DNA of 64,000 nucleotides from the NCBI GenBank assembly GCA_024305405.1, contig JAKNDB010000103.1, positions 3,410,001-3,474,000 of the forward strand, in the 5' to 3' direction. This stretch comes from Dirofilaria immitis. Taxonomy: Eukaryota; Nematoda; Chromadorea; Rhabditida; Onchocercidae. Positions 5,901-55,410 of this stretch are shown here, piece by piece. The first letter of the stretch is position 1, and every line of letters begins with the position of its first letter. The position numbers were made by a program, and so were the translations under genes. Under the pieces are notes generated by a model. The model was not told the origin of the DNA. It saw only the letters and a list, made by a program, of their open reading frames with translations, and did no database searches.

Positions 5901-7933
5901 TGCCATCCGTCATTGGATAAATAATGATGAAATAAACTTGAATATGCGTGATCTGAGCAAAACTAAAATAGATAAAAAGTATATATATGAATTCTACCGT
6001 TTGTAACATAATAAAAATTCAAGCATTCTCTAAAATGAATCAAAAAGATCTCAGCACTAACTTTTTGTCACCATCCAAGGCTTTCACAATTTTATTACGA
6101 CTAACAATATCTTCGTAGATATGTTTCGTCAGCATAGCGATATCCTCATCACTGAAATATTCTTACAAATGACCAATCATGCTTTGATCAAATTATTATT
6201 TTGCTTCTTCATAAATAGTAATATTAGTTATTTTTCTTTTTTTTCTGAATTAAATGTCAGGAACTTCTGAACTCTACCTTTTCAGAGATGTGAAAACAAC
6301 AATAGATCCAGTATTTGGAAATACTTTCTTGATGCCATTTTCGACTGTTAACGCATGCATTTCCTGTCTTGCAAGTTTCATTTTTAACGATAACCTTTTC
6401 ACACGATCCTAAATAGAAAGAAACTTTTTTATAGGAAAGTGAAATACGGTGGTGCTGGTCAATTTTCGTACATTTTTTGAAACTGAAGCAAGAATAATCA
6501 TTACCAATGACTATAAATAATGCAATTATAATAATCAAATTTTTCTAAAGAAATTTCTGCTTTTAAAGAAATGACAAAGCTTACCGCAAATTTCTTATTT
6601 CTTAAATCTGTTTTTTCCTTATCATCAACAACATCCATTAAATCTTCTTTGTTTTCTAGTTGTCTGTCAACAGTATGCTCTCTTGTATTGCTTTCGCCAT
6701 GTTTATTACATTTTCCAAAATGCTTGAAACCGGAATTCAAATCAGACTGTTTTTTTGTAATTCTGTTAATTCACTAATTGCTTCAACAGCAATTGAGATA
6801 CCATTAATTATGGAACAAGATGACAAATCTGCTTTAGCATCCGGGACGCCACATAATGCGAATGATTTTAATAACTGAAAAAAAAAAGAAATAATCTAAG
6901 AAATCTACGAAATAATGTTATAGAATCTAAGAAATAATCAGATTGATTCAAAGCATTAAAAAAATCAGTTTTTCAAAATTGGTATTTCTTTAACGCTTGA
7001 TTTCTTTTAAACAAATACTTTAGTATTAACAAAATAAAATGATATTTGTGATATAAAAGTATGATTTTTCAAAATTTTTATATTTTGAAATTCAGAATGT
7101 TGCATTTCTTGATGGATGATCTATAAGGAAATATGGACCTGATCTAATGAGATAAGTTGCGTGCCCCAATTTGGTGTCAGAAATCTTCCTACGAAATCGG
7201 AAATTACAAAACGCATTAATCGTACACCATTTGGATAGATTTCATCGACGATTCGATGAAATTCAAAAGCTGATTCAACAGCACAAGTCCAAAGTGTCTT
7301 CTCCACCTGATTCACTACACGCATTTGTCCCGTTGTTGAATCTTTCAATGGCATATCAATTTTCTGCAAATAATTTTGCATGTGAAAAAATATTTGACGT
7401 TTACATCACTCCTATTCATTCATGACTTCTAAATCGTTTATTAAAAATTGTTCAGTAATTCTGTATGATATTTATTTTATCATTAATTATCATTTTTATC
7501 ACGTAGATAGTCTTTAAAGTCAAAAATTTATGCGAAAGTACTACTGGTATGTATTTACGTTTAAAAAATAGCTGTGCAAATTTTCTATAATACAAATAAA
7601 TTAAAGGTTAAACATCGGAGAGAAAAGAAAATTGAGTTAAACCGAATGAAATTTGGATATTTTTATTAAAATCTAATTAACTTAGTTTTAATTATTTCAA
7701 AATTTGTCTATAATTCTATTTCTATTTAATTAAAAATAAATTGAACGAGGAAAATTGAAACTAACAAAATTAGAAGAAGTGGCAAAATCGGGTGAATGAT
7801 CCAAGACAATAACAGTTTTATGATCTGGGCCTATTATCACATCATTAACCGGTATATGATCAGACATATTCCATAATGCTGATAACGGATCTGTATGAAT
7901 CCAACGAGTAGAATTAGTAGCTGTTAAAACCAT
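2951..7933 (-). CDS. INTS13: Integrator complex subunit 13 (Asunder)
   Basis: Seventeen exons on the minus strand, about: 7766-7933, 7139-7363, 6585-6874, 6278-6408, 6062-6151, 5858-5962, 5553-5681, 5275-5466, 5087-5194, 4782-4907, 4598-4717, 4300-4442, 4034-4197, 3786-3888, 3555-3616, 3244-3376, 2951-3116. Landmarks shared with human and fly Asunder are HKTVIVLDHSPDF in exon 1, LWTCAVESAFEFHRIVDEI in exon 2, KHFDLASTTVTGIPMK in exon 7, VNYDVEVFH in exon 8, VNGRPSVCLTSFLLSGRNV in exon 9, RVADFATFMKETRL in exon 11 and LLRLTRYWPSK in exon 12. As an Integrator subunit it acts in the nucleus in snRNA 3'-end processing; fly Asunder also affects dynein localisation. Exon 3 carries a charged Lys/Asp-rich stretch with no counterpart in the vertebrate protein. 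Three apparent one-base deletions (T runs at 3074-3077, 5890-5894 and 6750-6756 on the plus strand) break the frame but homology resumes at once. The ATG at 7933 is the first in frame with the conserved N-terminus. Confidence 0.93.
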
Positions 7934-13024: not shown

Positions 13025-16000
13025 ATGAAATCTGCCGTATTTCGAATAGGTTCATTCTTACTGGTCCAACATTCGCCAGGAAAAGTTTTCAGCGCTCAAA
13101 AATTAAAGGATGATAACTATCAATATGTTCACAAAAGTGATATTCCAACGTATCACTTCCAAAGAAGTCTCCGAAGATTGCCAATTCCGAAATTGTCCGA
13201 TTCGTGTCGCAGGTATTTTTGTTTCAGGAACACAATTTTTTATATGATGGTTTTTCGTTGCTTAATGAACTAAATATTTATAAACGACAAATAACAGCAC
13301 CGTTAGCTCTCCTTTATTTTTTAGGCTTATAGGAGCTGCTGAAGCCGTACTTCGGAAGGAAGAATTAAAGTCACTGAAGGAGCTAGTGGAAGATTTTGCA
13401 GCTCATGAAGGCCCAAGTAAATATATATTTTGCGAAATTTTAGTTTATTAATTCTTAATCATATTGTTTATTGTAAGTAGTCAATGTTTCAGCTGTTGCT
13501 CAAGGAACTAGTGGAAGATTTTACAACGCATGAAGGCCCAAGTAAATTAATAGACTAAACTTTTTCGCAAAAAGTACTTCATAAAACTTTAATTTATTAA
13601 TTCTTAAATTGTTGTTTACTATAAATACTAAATGTTTCTGCTTTCAGAATTACAAAGGGAGCTCATATTGTATGATAAACGGAATCTTCATACAAGCTAC
13701 ATATCTGAACCGTGGTTTGACATGTACTTGAGCGATCGTATTCCATGTCCTATTAATTATAATCCATTCATGGTGTATGCTGCGGATCCTGATCCAGTTT
13801 ATAATGATCAGGCAAGAATTAGTACATTAATGAAGTTTTATTAGATTACATAAAAGTTGCTGATTATTGGATCCGGTTTATTCATTCAATTCAGTTGTTT
13901 AATTGTATATTAATCATGAACATATATAGATTATGTTAGATATTTATAATATATATAAATGAATGAAAATTGTAAGTTTAATTGGATATTTACTGCTTAA
14001 AATTATGAGCTAATTTTTGAAGGTAAATAAAATATTTTATTATCCAGTTCAGCTTACTCGTGCAACAAATCTGATTATTTCATATGGTCGTATTAAGCGT
14101 GCACTTGATGCAAAATGTTTAAAGCCTGAAATATACTATCTGAATCCCAAGACTGCCACTTCGCTAACATTTAAATGGCTTTGCAAGTTTGTTCATTTTC
14201 ATATTATGCTAGATTTCTTTCTTTTTCACTGTTCAGTAGAAAATTATCTTACGATAAATGAAGATTTAAATCTATAAATTTTCTAGTAAATGAAGCTATT
14301 GAAAACAAAATTTATCTTACTAAAATTTGCATTTCTATGAAGAATTATTTGTATAAGGATGAGTTAAAAAATGATGCGAAGAAAAATCATATTTTTGCGA
14401 ACTGTAAATATAATTATGAAGTATTTCAGAAACTTACCAGAAAATTTACGATGGTACGCTGCAGCGGCTTTGGTGCATTTCCTTTGGATATGAGCCAATA
14501 CAAATCACTTTTGGCGGCTCACGTATTCCACAAAAAGGAAAAGATTGGCTTTTGCATTGTTCTGATTCTAAACACTTCATTGTCTTACGCGGAGGAAGAA
14601 TTTATTCTGTTGATTTATTTGACAAGGATGGTACGTTATTGGTGAAATAATCAGTTCAAAAATTGCATAAATGAAAATATCATAAATGGCATAAATATAT
14701 TTAGCTCATTTATTATTCTCAAATTGCCTTTCTTTTCTCCCTTACTGACCGCACTTTACCCAAGAAAGATTTATCATAGATTTTTTTGCCATATATATCC
14801 TTTTTAATCAATCAAAGAAGGGAAATCTAAAAGCTAGTAATAGCTGCTTTGCTTCTTCACTATCTGCACTTGTTACAATATTTGTATCCATACCTCTAGT
14901 TTTACTGACTTTATCATGATCTACTTCTAAAAATGATATATGCTCCTTTATACCAAAAGAAAAATTACCATTACTATCAAATTGTTTTATACTGAATTCT
15001 CTAAAATCCTTTTCCTGCGGTAAAGTAACGTATATTAATCTTTCTAAAAACTCATACATTTTACCTATGTAAAGTTCCTTTACAGCCTACTGTAGCATCT
15101 TCTCTTATTATCATTAGTTTTAAATTTACAGGTTTAATTGTGCCTGCAGAACAAGTTCGGAATTGTCTGTCAATCATATTGTCCGAACAAAATCATCTAA
15201 AATCAGAAGAATGTGTTGGATCTTTAACTTCACTCGGACGTGACCAGTGGGCAGAAGTCTGTTTTCTTGTATAGCTCATTTTTACTGACACTTTTTATAA
15301 TTTCTCTTTTTCTTCAAAATTACGTTGAATGTTTTTTATTTTTTGATAATGGACCTATTATATACTTGACAACTGCAATGGTTCTGAATAATCAATTTTT
15401 GATGCATCGAATAAGTGATTACAAAACTATTTTTTGACGATATGAAAAATTTCCTTTATCTGAAATATATTTTAGGCTCGTTCTGAACTATCTTCAATTG
15501 GCAATAATTCGGCAAGCTTAGCACTGATTGATAGCAGTTTGTTTATTCTTTGTTTGGATACATTCAGAAGTGATGATGTAAGTCAAATGTCTGAAAACTT
15601 CCTAAGTGGTGGTGACGCTAGAAACAGGTATGAATTTTTAAAGATCCCGAACACAGTAGTAGTCCTTACAACACGAATTAATTAATTTTAGATGGTTCGA
15701 TAAATGCTTTCAATTAATAATTGACGCTCAAGGCTTAGCGACGATAAATTTCGAACATAGCTGGGGCGATGGTGTTGCTGTACTTCGCCTGATGGAAGAA
15801 TCATTTCACGATACGAAGCTAAATCATTTCGTACATCCCAGTCAGAATTTTAATGCCACATCACATTTAGTAAATAGTTTACGACCAGTTGGTTGGTTTT
15901 CTGATATTTCCTAGTTTCTTATAATTCCAGAAGGCTTCAAAAAACAATATCTTAAGTAAACAATGATTTAAGCTGCTGTTTTAGAAGAAAATCTTGTATA

Positions 16001-17493
16001 TAATGAAAAATTAAGCGAAGAGCTATCATCAAAAAGTATAATCCTTATATGTCAAACATCTAATAAGTTATATGCTTCAATTTAAAAAATAGTTTCAATT
16101 TCTTGTTCAAATCATTCTTTTTCAAAATCTTTGGAAATATGAAATGTTTTGCAGAATTTATGTTAACTGACTCAATACGTCAAAGAATTCAAGAAGCTCA
16201 ACAGAAGCATGTTGCGATAGGATCCAAAGTGTGTTTTAGCGCTGCAGAATATTTTGAAATGAATCGGGAATTTATCAAACGATCAAAACTTTCACCGGAT
16301 TCTATCATGCAATTAGCGATCCAACTAGCCTTTTATAAGCTCTTTAAAGAATTCGTTCCATCTTATGAATCCTGCAGTACTGCGGCTTTTCTGAAGGTAG
16401 AATTGAACTTTATAGAAGCTTTCAATAATCTTCTGTAACCCTGCAGATAAATTATGATAGTAATCATTAATAAAAATTATCACCCTATTTTAAAATTTGT
16501 ACATCCATTATTATAAATAGAACTACTGTATGATAGTTATATTCCCTAGAGAAGTTTAAGAAGGATAGCTTATATTGAGTTTCAGGGACGAACAGAATGC
16601 GTGCGTTCAGCAACATGTGCTACGACTGAAACGGTTTTGGCGATTGAAAATAATAAAGGCAATATTGGTGAACTTTTAAAGAAATGTTCTACAATGCATT
16701 CACAACTAGTAAAAGAAGCTGCAACAGGTGATTAATATAATTAAGGATGTTACATTTGGTGATTATTATTATTATTACTTATATATCTTAAGACGTACTT
16801 TTATTGAAGGGCAAGGTTTTGATCGTCATTTAATGGGTTTACGCTGTACCGCTGAGCGACTTGATTGGTTGCAGCCAAAATTATTCACTAGTACAATATA
16901 TCAATATATGAATCGCTTCATCTTGTCAACATCAACTCTCTCAACTGAAACGATAGCATTTGGTGGATTTGGTCCAGTCGTCTCTAATGGTTTTGGTATT
17001 GCTTATAACGTACTCAACGATAAAATGGGAGCTATTATTTCATCCTATAAGGTCATTATAATGTCAACTTTTATCCAATTTTGAAGAAATATTTGCAAAA
17101 TCATAAACGTGAAGTGAAATATTTTAAACATATATTTTGAGAATGACAAATTTTCTCTTTCAAGAAAAATATCAAAACGATTTCAATGATGAAAATCTAA
17201 TTAGTAGACGAATTAAGCGAAATTATTGAAATACAACCAACAGACCTATTTGAGAGGCAGATTTATTGTTCTCTATCCAATAAATGAAACATTAAATTTT
17301 TATCGAAGAGTGAGAGCTGCTATTTTGAATTTTAGCTGTCTTCCTTCAGTTAGTGAAATAGCAAAAGAATGTGCGAAATTTTTTCCGCTTTTTCATTAAA
17401 AGTTTTTTTCAGGATCAACGCGACGTGAACGCATTTGTGAATTCGTTTCTGGAAAGTCTGGATATTTTAAAAAATATAATCATTAAGCAATAA
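13025..17493 (+). CDS. CPT2: Carnitine O-palmitoyltransferase 2, mitochondrial
   Basis: Twelve exons: 13025-13212, 13325-13416, 13648-13811, 14053-14186, 14430-14630, 15132-15256, 15476-15627, 15692-15891, 16155-16396, 16586-16727, 16810-17051, 17413-17493. Family landmarks are [47 protein letters not shown], the catalytic-His motif [13 protein letters not shown] (exon 8), [38 protein letters not shown] and ILSTSTL with [15 protein letters not shown]. The enzyme transfers acyl groups from acylcarnitine to CoA on the matrix side of the inner mitochondrial membrane for beta-oxidation; the basic, hydrophobic N-terminus fits a targeting peptide. The exon ending at 13811 has a GC donor (CAG|GCAAGA). 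Two apparent one-base deletions lie in exon 5 (T runs 14478-14480 and 14509-14512). The intron 14631-15131 contains Wolbachia-derived DNA. The last exon encodes [16 protein letters not shown], matching the expected C-terminus. Confidence 0.95.
13373..13645 (+). repeat. Tandem duplication of a CPT2 exon tail and its intron
   Basis: The 3' part of CPT2 exon 2 with its donor and downstream intron (about 13373-13492) is repeated next door (about 13498-13645). The first copy encodes [14 protein letters not shown]; the second would encode [14 protein letters not shown]. The flanking intron parts are also alike (TTTATTAATTCTTAA in both). The second copy has an acceptor (TTTCAG at 13487-13492) and a GTAAAT donor, but using them after exon 2 puts it in a frame with a TGA. 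The first copy alone gives the length expected for the family, so the second is probably an unused or decayed exon. Confidence 0.8.
14700..14807 (-). pseudogene. rpsN: Wolbachia rpsN (30S ribosomal protein S14) 5' fragment
   Basis: Directly downstream of the rplE fragment, an AAGGA ribosome binding site (about 14798-14803) precedes an ATG at 14792 that opens MAKKSMI, the usual start of Wolbachia-type S14. After about 16 codons the frame ends in TAA, with a few weakly S14-like residues beyond. The order L5 then S14, with a surviving bacterial Shine-Dalgarno sequence, is that of the bacterial spc operon. This supports one contiguous transferred piece of about 420 bases. The left edge is uncertain. 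Confidence 0.7.
14808..15117 (-). pseudogene. rplE: Wolbachia rplE (50S ribosomal protein L5) fragment, nuclear insertion
   Basis: The minus strand of a CPT2 intron encodes the C-terminal part of a bacterial L5. The reading frame from 15059 begins [19 protein letters not shown], contains [18 protein letters not shown] and [17 protein letters not shown], and ends [11 protein letters not shown] before a stop at 14808-14810. This matches bacterial L5 motifs (WEFFERLI, RGLDI, FDFPF) and the AT-rich style of rickettsial/Wolbachia L5. Homology continues upstream of a frameshift with [15 protein letters not shown] (about 15068-15117), matching the conserved RKGATVGCKVTLRR stretch. The N-terminal part is absent and the upstream frame is broken, so it is a dead fragment. 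It lies antisense to CPT2 and should be removed by splicing. Confidence 0.88.
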
Positions 17494-49800: not shown

Positions 49801-52800
49801 TTGCAGTAAACAGAAAACCAGTTTTTAATATACACATCGCATTCGAGACTGCTATCGTGTCAAAATACTTGATTTTAAGTTCGGTCACCTAAAAAGAGAT
49901 TTAAAAAACAGTATAATTGGATAAAAAAATTATGCCTACGCTAGATAAAAATTACAATTGTAATTACATTAAATCACTACTATGTTCAAAGACAGTAAGC
50001 TGAAGGGTCATTAAACACTTGACATAACACCAAATTTAAACATTATATCGCTGAATTGAGATTGCAGATGTAAAAAAATAACGATAAAGAAATTCACCCA
50101 CATTTTAATGGGTCACATGATTCATTTAAAGAATAAGAGAACCTGTCCATCTACTTTAATAACACTAAAAATGAAGAAAGTCATCAAAATTAGAATTAAA
50201 ATGAAATATAAATCAAAATCATTCTAGTTCCAATTCATGAAAAAAAAAACCCACAATATCATGTTCACTTTCCAGCGTAACTTTAAAAATATCACCCTGG
50301 TCAGTCTGTACCAAGAAAAAATACATCAGTTTTGTCTTATGCGTTGCAGCACAAACAATTATGACGGTGCGATCGCAGTCATCTAGTTCATTCTGAAAAA
50401 AAATCAAATTGGTAGGAGGAATCAAGGCCAGCTGATAATGTCTGCTCTCTTCAAAATTACTTGAAGTCGAAAACTTATTCAAAAAGTTAATCAAGAATTA
50501 AACACTTAAAATATTCACTCTTCCATACTTGTCGAAAGAGTAATAGATAATAATAGAAACAAAAAGTCAAGAAGCAAACGAACTCTTCTCCGTGGTATCG
50601 GACATTTGATATCTGGTTGATCACCTAGATTTTTATAAACAAGATAATTCTCGCAACAAACAATAACACCACTAGGTCCATCTTGTCCACCAGGTACTGA
50701 AAAAATCAATTTACATATTTCGCATGTGTTGCTGACTGAGACTTATATTTATTTGCTTGTTGATTGAGAATCTCCAAATTTTTTCTAAAAATAGAATAGA
50801 CATGCCTGAAATCAGAATATTTCCTTTATCAACCAACGGCTCAGCATATTTGCGTACTACGTGATTCAAACCAAGATCCAATTCATAAAACGTTAGTGTT
50901 TGCGGAATTTTGGCAGCTAAATGCCCAGTAGGATCGTGATCAACTTCCTTCAATTCATTAAATTACTTCATCGCATACTGATTTTCAAACCTTGATGAGT
51001 AGGTTTTAAATTAATGAGAGAGAAAGTCTAAGCAATTGATTAGGAATGTATAGAAAATTCATTAAATACTTGTATTATCCAGAAAAAAACGTTTAAAAAT
51101 GATGTGAGGTGGATTATAATTTCGCGTTTGCTATATTTATAAGAAAAAAAATTTATAAGAATTTATAAGAAAAAAATATTTATAAGAAAAAAAAATTTTT
51201 TTCCAGAGAAATATTCTATAAACCATCACTTACTTCGTAATCAACTTCTAAACATGCAAAAGTAGGATTTTCGAATCCGACATCCACACCAACAACACTG
51301 TAACAGATACAATGGGATTTGTGTGCTTCCAGCGGAGAACTAATTGTTAAGTTAGCCGATGCATCTCGATTCATAATATATACTAATTTCTGACGTTCTA
51401 CCGCACCTGTGAAAAATAAATTATTTGAAAATATCTCATAACAACAAGAATTTTGTTCAATCTTACAAAGTTATTAAATCTTCTAATGTCTTCTTACCCA
51501 TGGCATAAATAATAAAATTGTGATGCCTTTTAAAAGATTGATTTAGAGGTTATAATCGGCAAGCAATTAGGCTATAATTTTTATCGATAGACCGTCCGAA
51601 GGACCTCAATCAATCTGTAGTCCTGATACGATATGATCAACTCACATTTTTCATCTAATGTTTACATGTTACTTACCATTTTGAATATTTTAGCATCTTC
51701 TTATTATAATGCATTATATATTAATTATAATCAAGGTTTGGATTTATTTAAAAATAATTAATCCTATCGTCGTTAATAGAGGCTATAAATTGAGGCGAAA
51801 AACATATTAGATTTGTCTATACATGGTAGGAAGCAGGAACTAAAAATCGGTGCAACAGAGATGCGCTTTCAGAAATTACAAAAACATTCTCTGACAGAGT
51901 TGGGATAATATACAGGAAATTAAATTTCCAAATCACCATATATCCTGCTAATAGATCAGCCTATCTATGTTATATGATTTCCCTTTAAATAATTCGTACT
52001 TATCAGTTTTCAAAATCTTTCATTAACGCAAAAATTTCAAATTACCCACCAATCAGAATGGCACGTCCTTTCGGATCAACAGCAAGAAACTGTCCCGGAA
52101 CAATTCGTCGACAGCCAGTTTTCCCGAATGTTTCTTGGTGGACTCTTTCGAAACATACTTTCTGCGCATTGTATTCCAGAATTACAATACGTCCAGCATC
52201 CGAACCAACAACAATATAGTCTACAATAATTTTTGTCATATTTCTAATTTTAAAACCTATTTTCTGAAATCACTACGAGATTTACATAAACCTCAATACG
52301 ATGAGTCGATTAAAAGTTCTTCTGTTTAAGTAAAATATGCCGGAAAAAATTATTCAAATCTATCGGAAAATAATTTTAGAAATAAATATTACAAACCTTT
52401 ATTTCCACCAGTTAAACGAAAAGCCAGCAATGATCTTATAATACCGAAAGTATTATGACTGCATAAAACATGAATTTTTCCTGTTTTCGGATCACAAAAC
52501 AATAATTGAAGAAGATTACCGCGAGCAATGCATACTTCCTACAATATAATTAAATTAATTCGATGCTTTCGGTAGTTACTTCCTTTGTTTTCTAAAGTTA
52601 TATGTTGTTTATTTTTTCTCATTTAATTGCAATCTGATAAGTTGAACTGGTGATTTCTTATAAAAGCGCCTTAATGTAAACCAGATGTCAAAATATACTA
52701 CTTACACGTCTGGAAGCCGCTTATATTTTACGCATATATACGGAGAATTCAATGTGCCTCATTTTTCCTGTTTTTACTCTCAACAATCTTATTATTTATC

Positions 52801-53022: not shown

Positions 53023-55410
53023 TGAATTCTCAGAATTTTGTTTGCTTTTGCTTTATGCGATCTGTAACTTATGTTTAACATTTCATTAATTCCATCTAAT
53101 AAATTTTTTTATAACAATAAGTAATTAACACTTCCAAACGATGAGTAAAAAAATACATAATTATGAGTAATATTGCAACAAAAAGTGACAAATATTTAGC
53201 CTAATCAGAGCCAATGATAAATGAAGAGCTAACAGAAGAATCACGATAACATTAAGTGATTACACTATTTATTTTATTCAATCTAAGCAATTTATAAACT
53301 ATCATTTGCAGTGATAATGGAACATATTTATCTTAAACAACTACTGATATGTTGATAAATAAAGTTAAATTCTGAACAATAGGCAACAAAACAATAATAA
53401 AAATCATGATTGATAGAAAATTTCTAGCTGCACTGATAAGGTAAAATTGCTTTCTCAATCAATGATAAGGTTGCAATTTTGAATAGAAATTTTAAGGAGA
53501 AAAATATAATTACGAGGTAATATATATGTTACCCATGTAAAGCGTATAGAGGTTTTTTTGCAGATTATATTTATTGCATTGGAGAAAACAAAGCAAGCAC
53601 GAGTTTCTATCATTCATCGAAATATCTTCAGATAATTTTGATCATATCTTCAGATTGATATTTTAGAAAAGCAAAGAAAAAGTTCAATTCTCACTTAAAA
53701 TTTAAAATTGAAAAATCAAATAATTAAAGTTGAAAATTCAAATAATGTCAGCGGAAAAAAAAACTCATCCATCATTAAGCAAAACGTGACCCTTCACCCC
53801 ACCAACTTGTCTATGAAATGCTTTCAATCACTGCTACATTTAATAAGTTGCAATGATTTCGCCATTCTCAATCTATCATCACATTATCTATCATCATTTT
53901 CATCAATCTTTATAGCATCCTTCATTACATATTATCTCCCATCCTCTATGTCTAACTCTATCAGAGCATATAGCGCAGTATTTCCCGACCTGTCTAATAT
54001 TTAACAATATCTTACTTTCATTCATCCTCCCACATATATACAATCCCAAAATGACAATAACTCTAACTCTCTTCATTTACCATATTATTTCATGCATTCA
54101 GCAATTTTGATTAATTTACGAAATCAGCAAATTGCATGCAACGAATCGTTGAGACGCAAAAAGAAATTTCGATATTTATTAAGAAATAAGTACAAAATGA
54201 AGTAATTAGATTAGTTTTAATTTGAAAAGAAACTTTTTTGAAGTTTTCTTTCAATCAAAGTTAGATTATGAAGGATGATAACGGTGATAAGCAGTGATTA
54301 CATTTTAAAAATAAACCTATTACCTCAATTTTGCATTTAAAATATTGCTGATAATAAAATTTGCTAAAAAGCTTGCTTTTGTTAAATTACAGTAACAATT
54401 TTTTACATTCCTATCATTCATTCATCTTTATGCAAATTTATTTTTCCCAAAAATTTTTATATTTCTAATTTATGAACAAAAAAAAAAAAAAAAAGAAAAA
54501 GAATCTACAATAATAGAAATGCAAAATTAGAATTAACTTATCAATTATTATCGATAAAAAGTAAATTTTGATAATCCAAAAGACTGGAAAATGAAAAATG
54601 CAACCTTGATTAAGTGTTGTTTAGAAAAAAATGATATGATAAATTTTAAATTTATCATATCACTTATTTTTTGAATGAAATTTTTCACCTTCAGTGAACG
54701 CAGTTAAAACGAAGAAAAAAATTGAAAATATCAGAAAAATAAGTCGAGAAATGATCAAACGATCGAATAATGTAATTTCATAATTGTATATTCTAAATTA
54801 ATCATTTTTGAATTTTGTATATTTTGATTTTAATACTTACAAATATTATCGAATCTAAAATATTAAAAGTAGTACTTAAAAAAAAAAAATTTTTTGTTTT
54901 GTTTATTTTCAAATGTTTCTAATATTGAATGCAAAAATTATATCAAAAAAATACGCAAATTGTTGAATTGAAATATTTTAATTTTAAATTGAAATACATT
55001 CCAATTTTGAAGTAAAATATTTGTGCTGTTGAAAGTGAAATATTTTAATTTCAAATTAAAATATATTTTAATTTAAAAGTAAAATATTTTGATTGTTAAA
55101 ATAAAATTCAAATTAAAATATTTCATTTTTAAAATGAAATATTTTCATTATTTCCATTTTGATAAATAATACACATTTTAAATTTGATATATTATTGTGA
55201 TCGTAAAGATTTATACGTATTAAAAGGAGAAATCAATCAAAACTTTTCGTTATTAAAGTATTAATATGCCTTTTGTCATTTTGTTACAAATCCAATTCAA
55301 ATTATATTTGTGTGAAAAAAAAATTTTTTTTAATTAAACGAAATTTTGAAAACATTATGAAAACTTGCTATAATATGAAAAAATCAACAATTCTTATAAC
55401 AATATGATAC

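Follow-up and report, generated by a model that had tools for sequence, protein, structure and literature searches.

What is a minus-strand fragment of a bacterial ribosomal protein operon doing inside an intron of a nematode gene, from where was it acquired, and does it serve the worm? The locus lies in a stretch of 64,000 nucleotides of the Dirofilaria immitis assembly GCA_024305405.1 (contig JAKNDB010000103.1, positions 3,410,001 to 3,474,000), the whole of which is referred to here as the window and supplies the coordinates below. A sequence-only reading, made without database searches, had proposed that one piece of Wolbachia DNA of about 420 bases, holding the end of rplE (ribosomal protein L5) and the start of rpsN (S14), was inserted in an intron of CPT2, and that the transfer may be fairly recent.

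Window positions 14722-15107, on the minus strand, match the Wolbachia genome wDimm (piece L076) at 89.8% identity over 403 columns (BLASTN, 527 bits, E 7e-149); the best score among 20 dinucleotide-shuffled versions of the window was 44.6 bits. This match runs from rplE into rpsN, in keeping with a single contiguous piece. The minus-strand frame 14808-15086 (stop to stop; 92 residues, with the final 85 aligning to L5) matches the Pfam family Ribosomal_L5_C at 3.5e-25. The L5 frame closes at a TGA (14810-14808), next to which the sequence reads AAGGA (14802-14798) and then ATGGCAAAAAAATCTATG, encoding MAKKSM from an ATG at 14792-14790; this series is present in the minus-strand sequence as had been claimed, and its order is that of live Wolbachia genomes. 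In total the insert spans approximately codon 77 of rplE to codon 27 of rpsN. Its parts, all on the minus strand, are the 3′ part of rplE, running from codon 77 or so as far as its TGA (14808-15107; Ribosomal_L5_C, BLASTN, and alignment), with a 2-base and a 3-base deletion relative to wDimm; the rplE-rpsN spacer (14793-14807; sequence and alignment), with a 2-base deletion, in which the AAGGA resembles a ribosome-binding site; and the 5′ end of rpsN from the ATG of MAKKSM (14722-14792; BLASTN and alignment), with deletions of 6 and 3 bases. The L5 coding sequence consists of 85 codons in one frame, a 2-base deletion, and approximately 12 more codons in another frame, which together account for the roughly 100 codons of bacterial L5 first noticed. 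Clear homology stops at 15107-15113 on the rplE edge, and past the rpsN-side end of the BLASTN match (14722) positions 14690-14721 are weakly alike to wDimm, where homology to rpsN may fade onward to about 14690. Of the limits originally proposed, 15117 thus stands close to the end of homology, and 14700, within the weakly matching stretch, is plausible.

The insert sits within a 501-base intron (14631-15131, plus strand) of the gene for carnitine O-palmitoyltransferase 2 (CPT2). As read from the sequence, the intron begins with GT (14631-14632) and ends with AG (15130-15131), with the coding frame resuming in phase in the next exon. The exon upstream of the insert (14430-14630, plus strand) resembles solved CPT2 structures (PDB sequence match to 2h4t_A, E 5.5e-4; Carn_acyltransf, 1.2e-8) in three frames in turn, and the open frame 16713-17084 (plus strand), holding the 3′ part of CPT2, resembles them as well (PDB sequence match, 3.9e-19), so that the gene extends beyond the insert. 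Both the intron of about 500 bases and the insertion into CPT2 of a filarial nematode, with CPT2 exons on either side, had been correctly read. The exon 14430-14630 shows two apparent 1-base frameshifts, as though two single bases were missing; these are probably Nanopore deletion errors, the other explanation being a damaged gene. Without the insert the intron would measure approximately 77-115 bases (by arithmetic from two possible insert extents), and clear insert homology stops 18-24 bases short of the next CPT2 exon. Within the assembly (86.7 Mb in 65 contigs), host DNA is joined to the insert on both sides, with CPT2 exons, in a contig (C63) of at least 3.47 Mb. These junctions rest on one assembly, probably from Nanopore reads; the available part of its description gives Nanopore R9.4.1 sequencing, assembly with Flye, raw-read correction, and removal of Wolbachia contigs from this genome of a worm that carries wDimm as its live symbiont (PMC9179477). 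Of four sites of an ITS2 primer in the assembly, three were examined as loci; two contain the complete primer span, at 526 and 533 bases, and one does not. Published spans are 542 bases for D. immitis and 484 for D. repens (PMC9967715); the two values are far from that of D. repens and slightly below that of D. immitis, a difference that Nanopore deletion errors may explain. A cox1 primer for D. immitis had no match, which carries little information, as the assembly may lack mitochondrial DNA.

The Wolbachia lineage from which the fragment came was examined among 343 genomes of one order, presumably the Rickettsiales; 40 of these had a strong match, and the best 30 of the 40 loci were compared. 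The comparison with Wolbachia genomes, which had been suggested as a check, returned wDimm as the best match, 97 bits ahead of wOo (84.4% over 404 columns, 430 bits). Locus L027 matched at 81.8% over 395 columns and the remaining 27 of the 30 loci at 78.6-84.5% over 343-440 columns; the third-scoring DNA match is presumably wCfeJ. L030, at 84.5% over 343 columns, would rank with wOo if identity alone were considered. In a tree with the same best 30 of 40 loci, the insert is the sister of wDimm (aLRT 96.1, bootstrap 100), on a branch of 0.179, a figure that includes the poorly alike end, compared to 0.013 for wDimm. When the C-terminal 90 residues (X-padded) were searched against proteins, 60 hits resulted, topped at 87% by P0002, the first 177 residues of which are identical to wOo L5. 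A Wolbachia name is borne by 19 of the 60 hits (best, 85%), and one hit is named as a “Rickettsiales bacterium” (78%). The insert nests inside Wolbachia diversity in both the tree and the protein search, and the Wolbachia origin first proposed is borne out by the BLASTN score, the Ribosomal_L5_C match, and the position in the tree. Judged by these sequence comparisons, its nearest relative is wDimm, the live symbiont of D. immitis, and an earlier remark about worms that no longer carry the symbiont is inapplicable to this species.

Sources other than Wolbachia were rejected. For a mitochondrial or cytosolic ribosomal protein, the genome holds two matches to the L5 C-terminal family in total, the other being on contig C58, where it is spread over several exons and looks like the cytosolic homologue, as we presume it should be named. 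For other bacteria, all 63 matching plasmid records are below 60% (54.1% is the best among 20 listed), a contig scan gave eight non-Wolbachia loci at 44-54%, and Neoehrlichia reached 61% in the protein search. The insert DNA had no match in plasmid records, nor did the insert protein in viral contigs. Without padding, the 92-residue piece found one JGI protein (P0001, from a contig of 12,250 bases), a 100-residue L5 fragment lacking its start, with 74% identity across 66% of the query, which resembles a Wolbachia insertion in a different genome.

The insert is best read as a nuclear Wolbachia transfer (NUWT) in the germ-line DNA of the worm, decaying neutrally in an intron of CPT2, to which we give a probability of roughly 0.94. 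A fragment of approximately 390-420 bases, running from the last part of rplE into the first part of rpsN, would have passed from an ancestor of wDimm to the CPT2 intron, as indicated by sequence, phylogeny, and position, and was presumably joined there by end-joining at a chance break. It would since have been copied as neutral intron sequence, as suggested by small deletions and by substitutions spread evenly over codon positions, and is presumably excised with the intron at splicing, yielding no protein.

The decay can be followed in the L5 stretch, where changes at 295 comparable sites were assigned to the insert side (14 substitutions) or the wDimm side (two), with one ambiguous. By codon position (first/second/third) the insert-side substitutions number 4/6/4, while the same stretch in live strains gives 6/3/18 between wDimm and wOo and 6/7/21 between wDimm and L027. 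Set against the 6/3/18 of live strains, the 4/6/4 spread argues for neutral nuclear decay, and the changes look for the most part to postdate a transfer whose donor stood very close to wDimm. Nine of the insert changes are nonsynonymous and five synonymous, slightly under the 70-75% nonsynonymous expected under neutrality (a value that varies with transition weight); mild constraint is also compatible with this test, which comprises 14 changes only. Decay of this kind is a usual, not strictly defining, mark of NUWTs. When aligned to wDimm, the insert shows six deletions (2, 3, 2, 6, 3, and 2 bases, the last of them in the end where similarity is weak) and no insertion; the alignment made by BLAST exceeds the wDimm stretch by one column, equal to one added base. 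One deletion trims a run of four G, and given this and the frameshifts in the CPT2 exon, some of the insert indels may be Nanopore errors, as may part of the substitutions.

An alternative that dates the divergence differently would have a Wolbachia strain, now lost and already diverged from wDimm, donate an insert that is young and little decayed. Some Dirofilaria NUWTs have been published as derived from another supergroup (PMC12693587), and a second scrap of rplE elsewhere in this genome does not group with wDimm when a short alignment is used. The insert itself branches with wDimm at a bootstrap of 100, and its changes lack the predominance of third positions that divergence between living bacteria displays, which makes such a donor very unlikely.

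Neutral nuclear decay, with the insert spliced out and without function, is also the most likely account of its present state. The L5 piece is without its first ~76 codons and start, and the S14 piece without most of its length; a functional transfer would be expected to retain a full-length, conserved reading frame maintained by selection, and what is found is truncated at both ends, broken in frame by a 2-base deletion, and changed without codon bias. These same features tell against recruitment of the insert by CPT2, whether for an antisense transcript, an additional exon, or signals for splicing, a reading to which we likewise attach very little weight. The L5 frame, open over 85 codons, might seem to favor it, but 14 neutral substitutions would leave the frame free of stops with a probability of 0.47-0.69, indels aside, and a stop-free frame is to be expected by chance. 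Also in its favor is the edge of the insert: it lies 18-24 bases from the 3′ splice site, in the region expected to hold a branch point, so that Wolbachia-derived bases may supply the branch point of the intron. It is conceivable, if improbable, that they provide the CPT2 branch-point region and that the insert, as most of a working intron, is kept in use as noncoding sequence.

Least credible is an assembly chimera, in which a live Wolbachia stretch was wrongly joined into a worm contig that most likely comes from a Wolbachia-carrying animal and, according to the available part of PMC9179477, from an assembly filtered for Wolbachia: a difference of 10% from live wDimm with five or six small deletions marks the insert as neither stray symbiont sequence nor a contaminating live-symbiont copy, its flanks are both exons of one gene, in phase, and comparable fragments occur on many contigs.

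If the insert is a neutrally decaying nuclear copy, its substitutions offer an approximate age. The 14 changes in 295 sites amount to 4.7% on the insert side of the L5 stretch. At a C. elegans-like rate of 2-3e-9 per generation this would put the transfer at some ten to twenty million generations ago, a rough order of magnitude only. The same 20-kb piece of wDimm has 41 matches in the genome, of which 25 are >90% and 18 at least 95% identical, in a ranking by similarity that leans young, as old fragments escape the search. With 25 of 41 matches more similar to wDimm, the insert is not among the young fragments of this genome as ranked by sequence identity. The open L5 frame, from which a fairly recent transfer had been proposed, is no sign of youth given the chance of escaping a stop, and with the insert approximately 10% off live wDimm that proposal is not supported.

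The insert is not the only Wolbachia sequence in the window. Positions 51783-51923 match wDimm at 80.5% (BLASTN, 123 bits, E 2.9e-27) approximately 460 bases beyond a frame that we take to be purH-like, and fall between two exons, read by eye, of a minus-strand gene presumably like SF3B3. Upstream of that gene, 53352-53642 (plus strand) match at 72.8% (BLASTN, 145 bits, E 9e-34) the 5′ end, with 36 preceding bases, of a wDimm gene that is presumably ribonuclease E/G-like; this fragment was recovered again in the genome search with a wDimm piece. A 36-base match to wDimm at 6419-6454 (91.7%, 52.7 bits) is just over the shuffled maximum of 44.6 bits and may represent a chance match or an extremely short fragment.

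Across the genome, two 20-kb wDimm pieces, both picked for matching this window and so not random, gave 41 and 37 matches. Merged within 1 kb, these form 40 regions for the first piece (37 with a match of at least 80% identity) and 30 for the second (21 with such a match), and 32 of the 41 and 20 of the 37 matches have an E value of 1e-30 or better (52 of 78 in total). Some of the weaker matches to the second piece aligned like host-gene exons and are not NUWTs. Scaled to 920 kb, approximately 1,200 matches at 1e-30 would be expected, a lead only, as the shuffled controls cover the window, and by extrapolation this genome probably contains a thousand or more fragments. The published count for D. 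immitis is 483 regions, obtained at 1e-30 with gene models by methods that differ from the present search (PMC12693587). The number of short NUWTs may exceed this gene-based count two- to threefold. At C8 812555-812835 and C21 2664120-2664317, neighboring wDimm matches lie in opposite orientation and touch or overlap on the wDimm map, as would follow from an inversion or from the joining of two pieces upon insertion. The second rplE scrap (L002/L058; contig C10, 2828352-2828496), placed in a separate tree from the insert, groups with L029, L043, and L045 and not with wDimm (82.2/89 support, 121 columns). This suggests a separate transfer from another supergroup, and an origin as a duplicate of the CPT2-intron insertion is not favored; supergroup F for L029, L043, and L045 would fit published NUWTs.

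Taken as a single locus, the insert is of minor importance, adding one fossil of the association between Dirofilaria and Wolbachia and a clean case of a bacterial gene decaying neutrally in the worm nucleus. The larger count of short NUWTs, if true, would be more useful, as it bears on how diagnostics and the assembly of symbiont genomes separate symbiont DNA from nuclear copies. An rplE-rpsN insert in a CPT2 intron was not found named in the available parts of the NUWT literature, supplementary locus tables aside, including the available text of PMC4703054 and PMC2882956, and we make no claim that the locus is unlisted.

The insert is an ordinary example of a well-described type of genomic fossil, of which this genome yielded dozens. 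NUWTs of D. immitis are 85% of supergroup C and 12% of supergroup F origin, and the supergroup C-derived NUWTs of Onchocerca have a mean length of 434 bp (Vancaester et al. 2025, PMC12693587); in O. volvulus, the accessible text of PMC5310847 gives 531 putative nuwts, largely nonfunctional. Wolbachia DNA also occurs in the nuclear genome of Brugia malayi, introns included, with intron and UTR sites under-represented (549 junction reads, compared to 2343 for an even spread) in the part of PMC3849323 available. The Brugia malayi donor, unlike that of the CPT2-intron insert, is supergroup D, and the Brugia insertions derived from D have a greater mean length (2,038 bp; PMC12693587). The closest likeness is to the supergroup C-derived NUWTs of D. 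immitis and Onchocerca, which are short, scattered, and decayed and reside in worms with a live supergroup C symbiont, and from which the CPT2-intron insert differs in nothing of kind.
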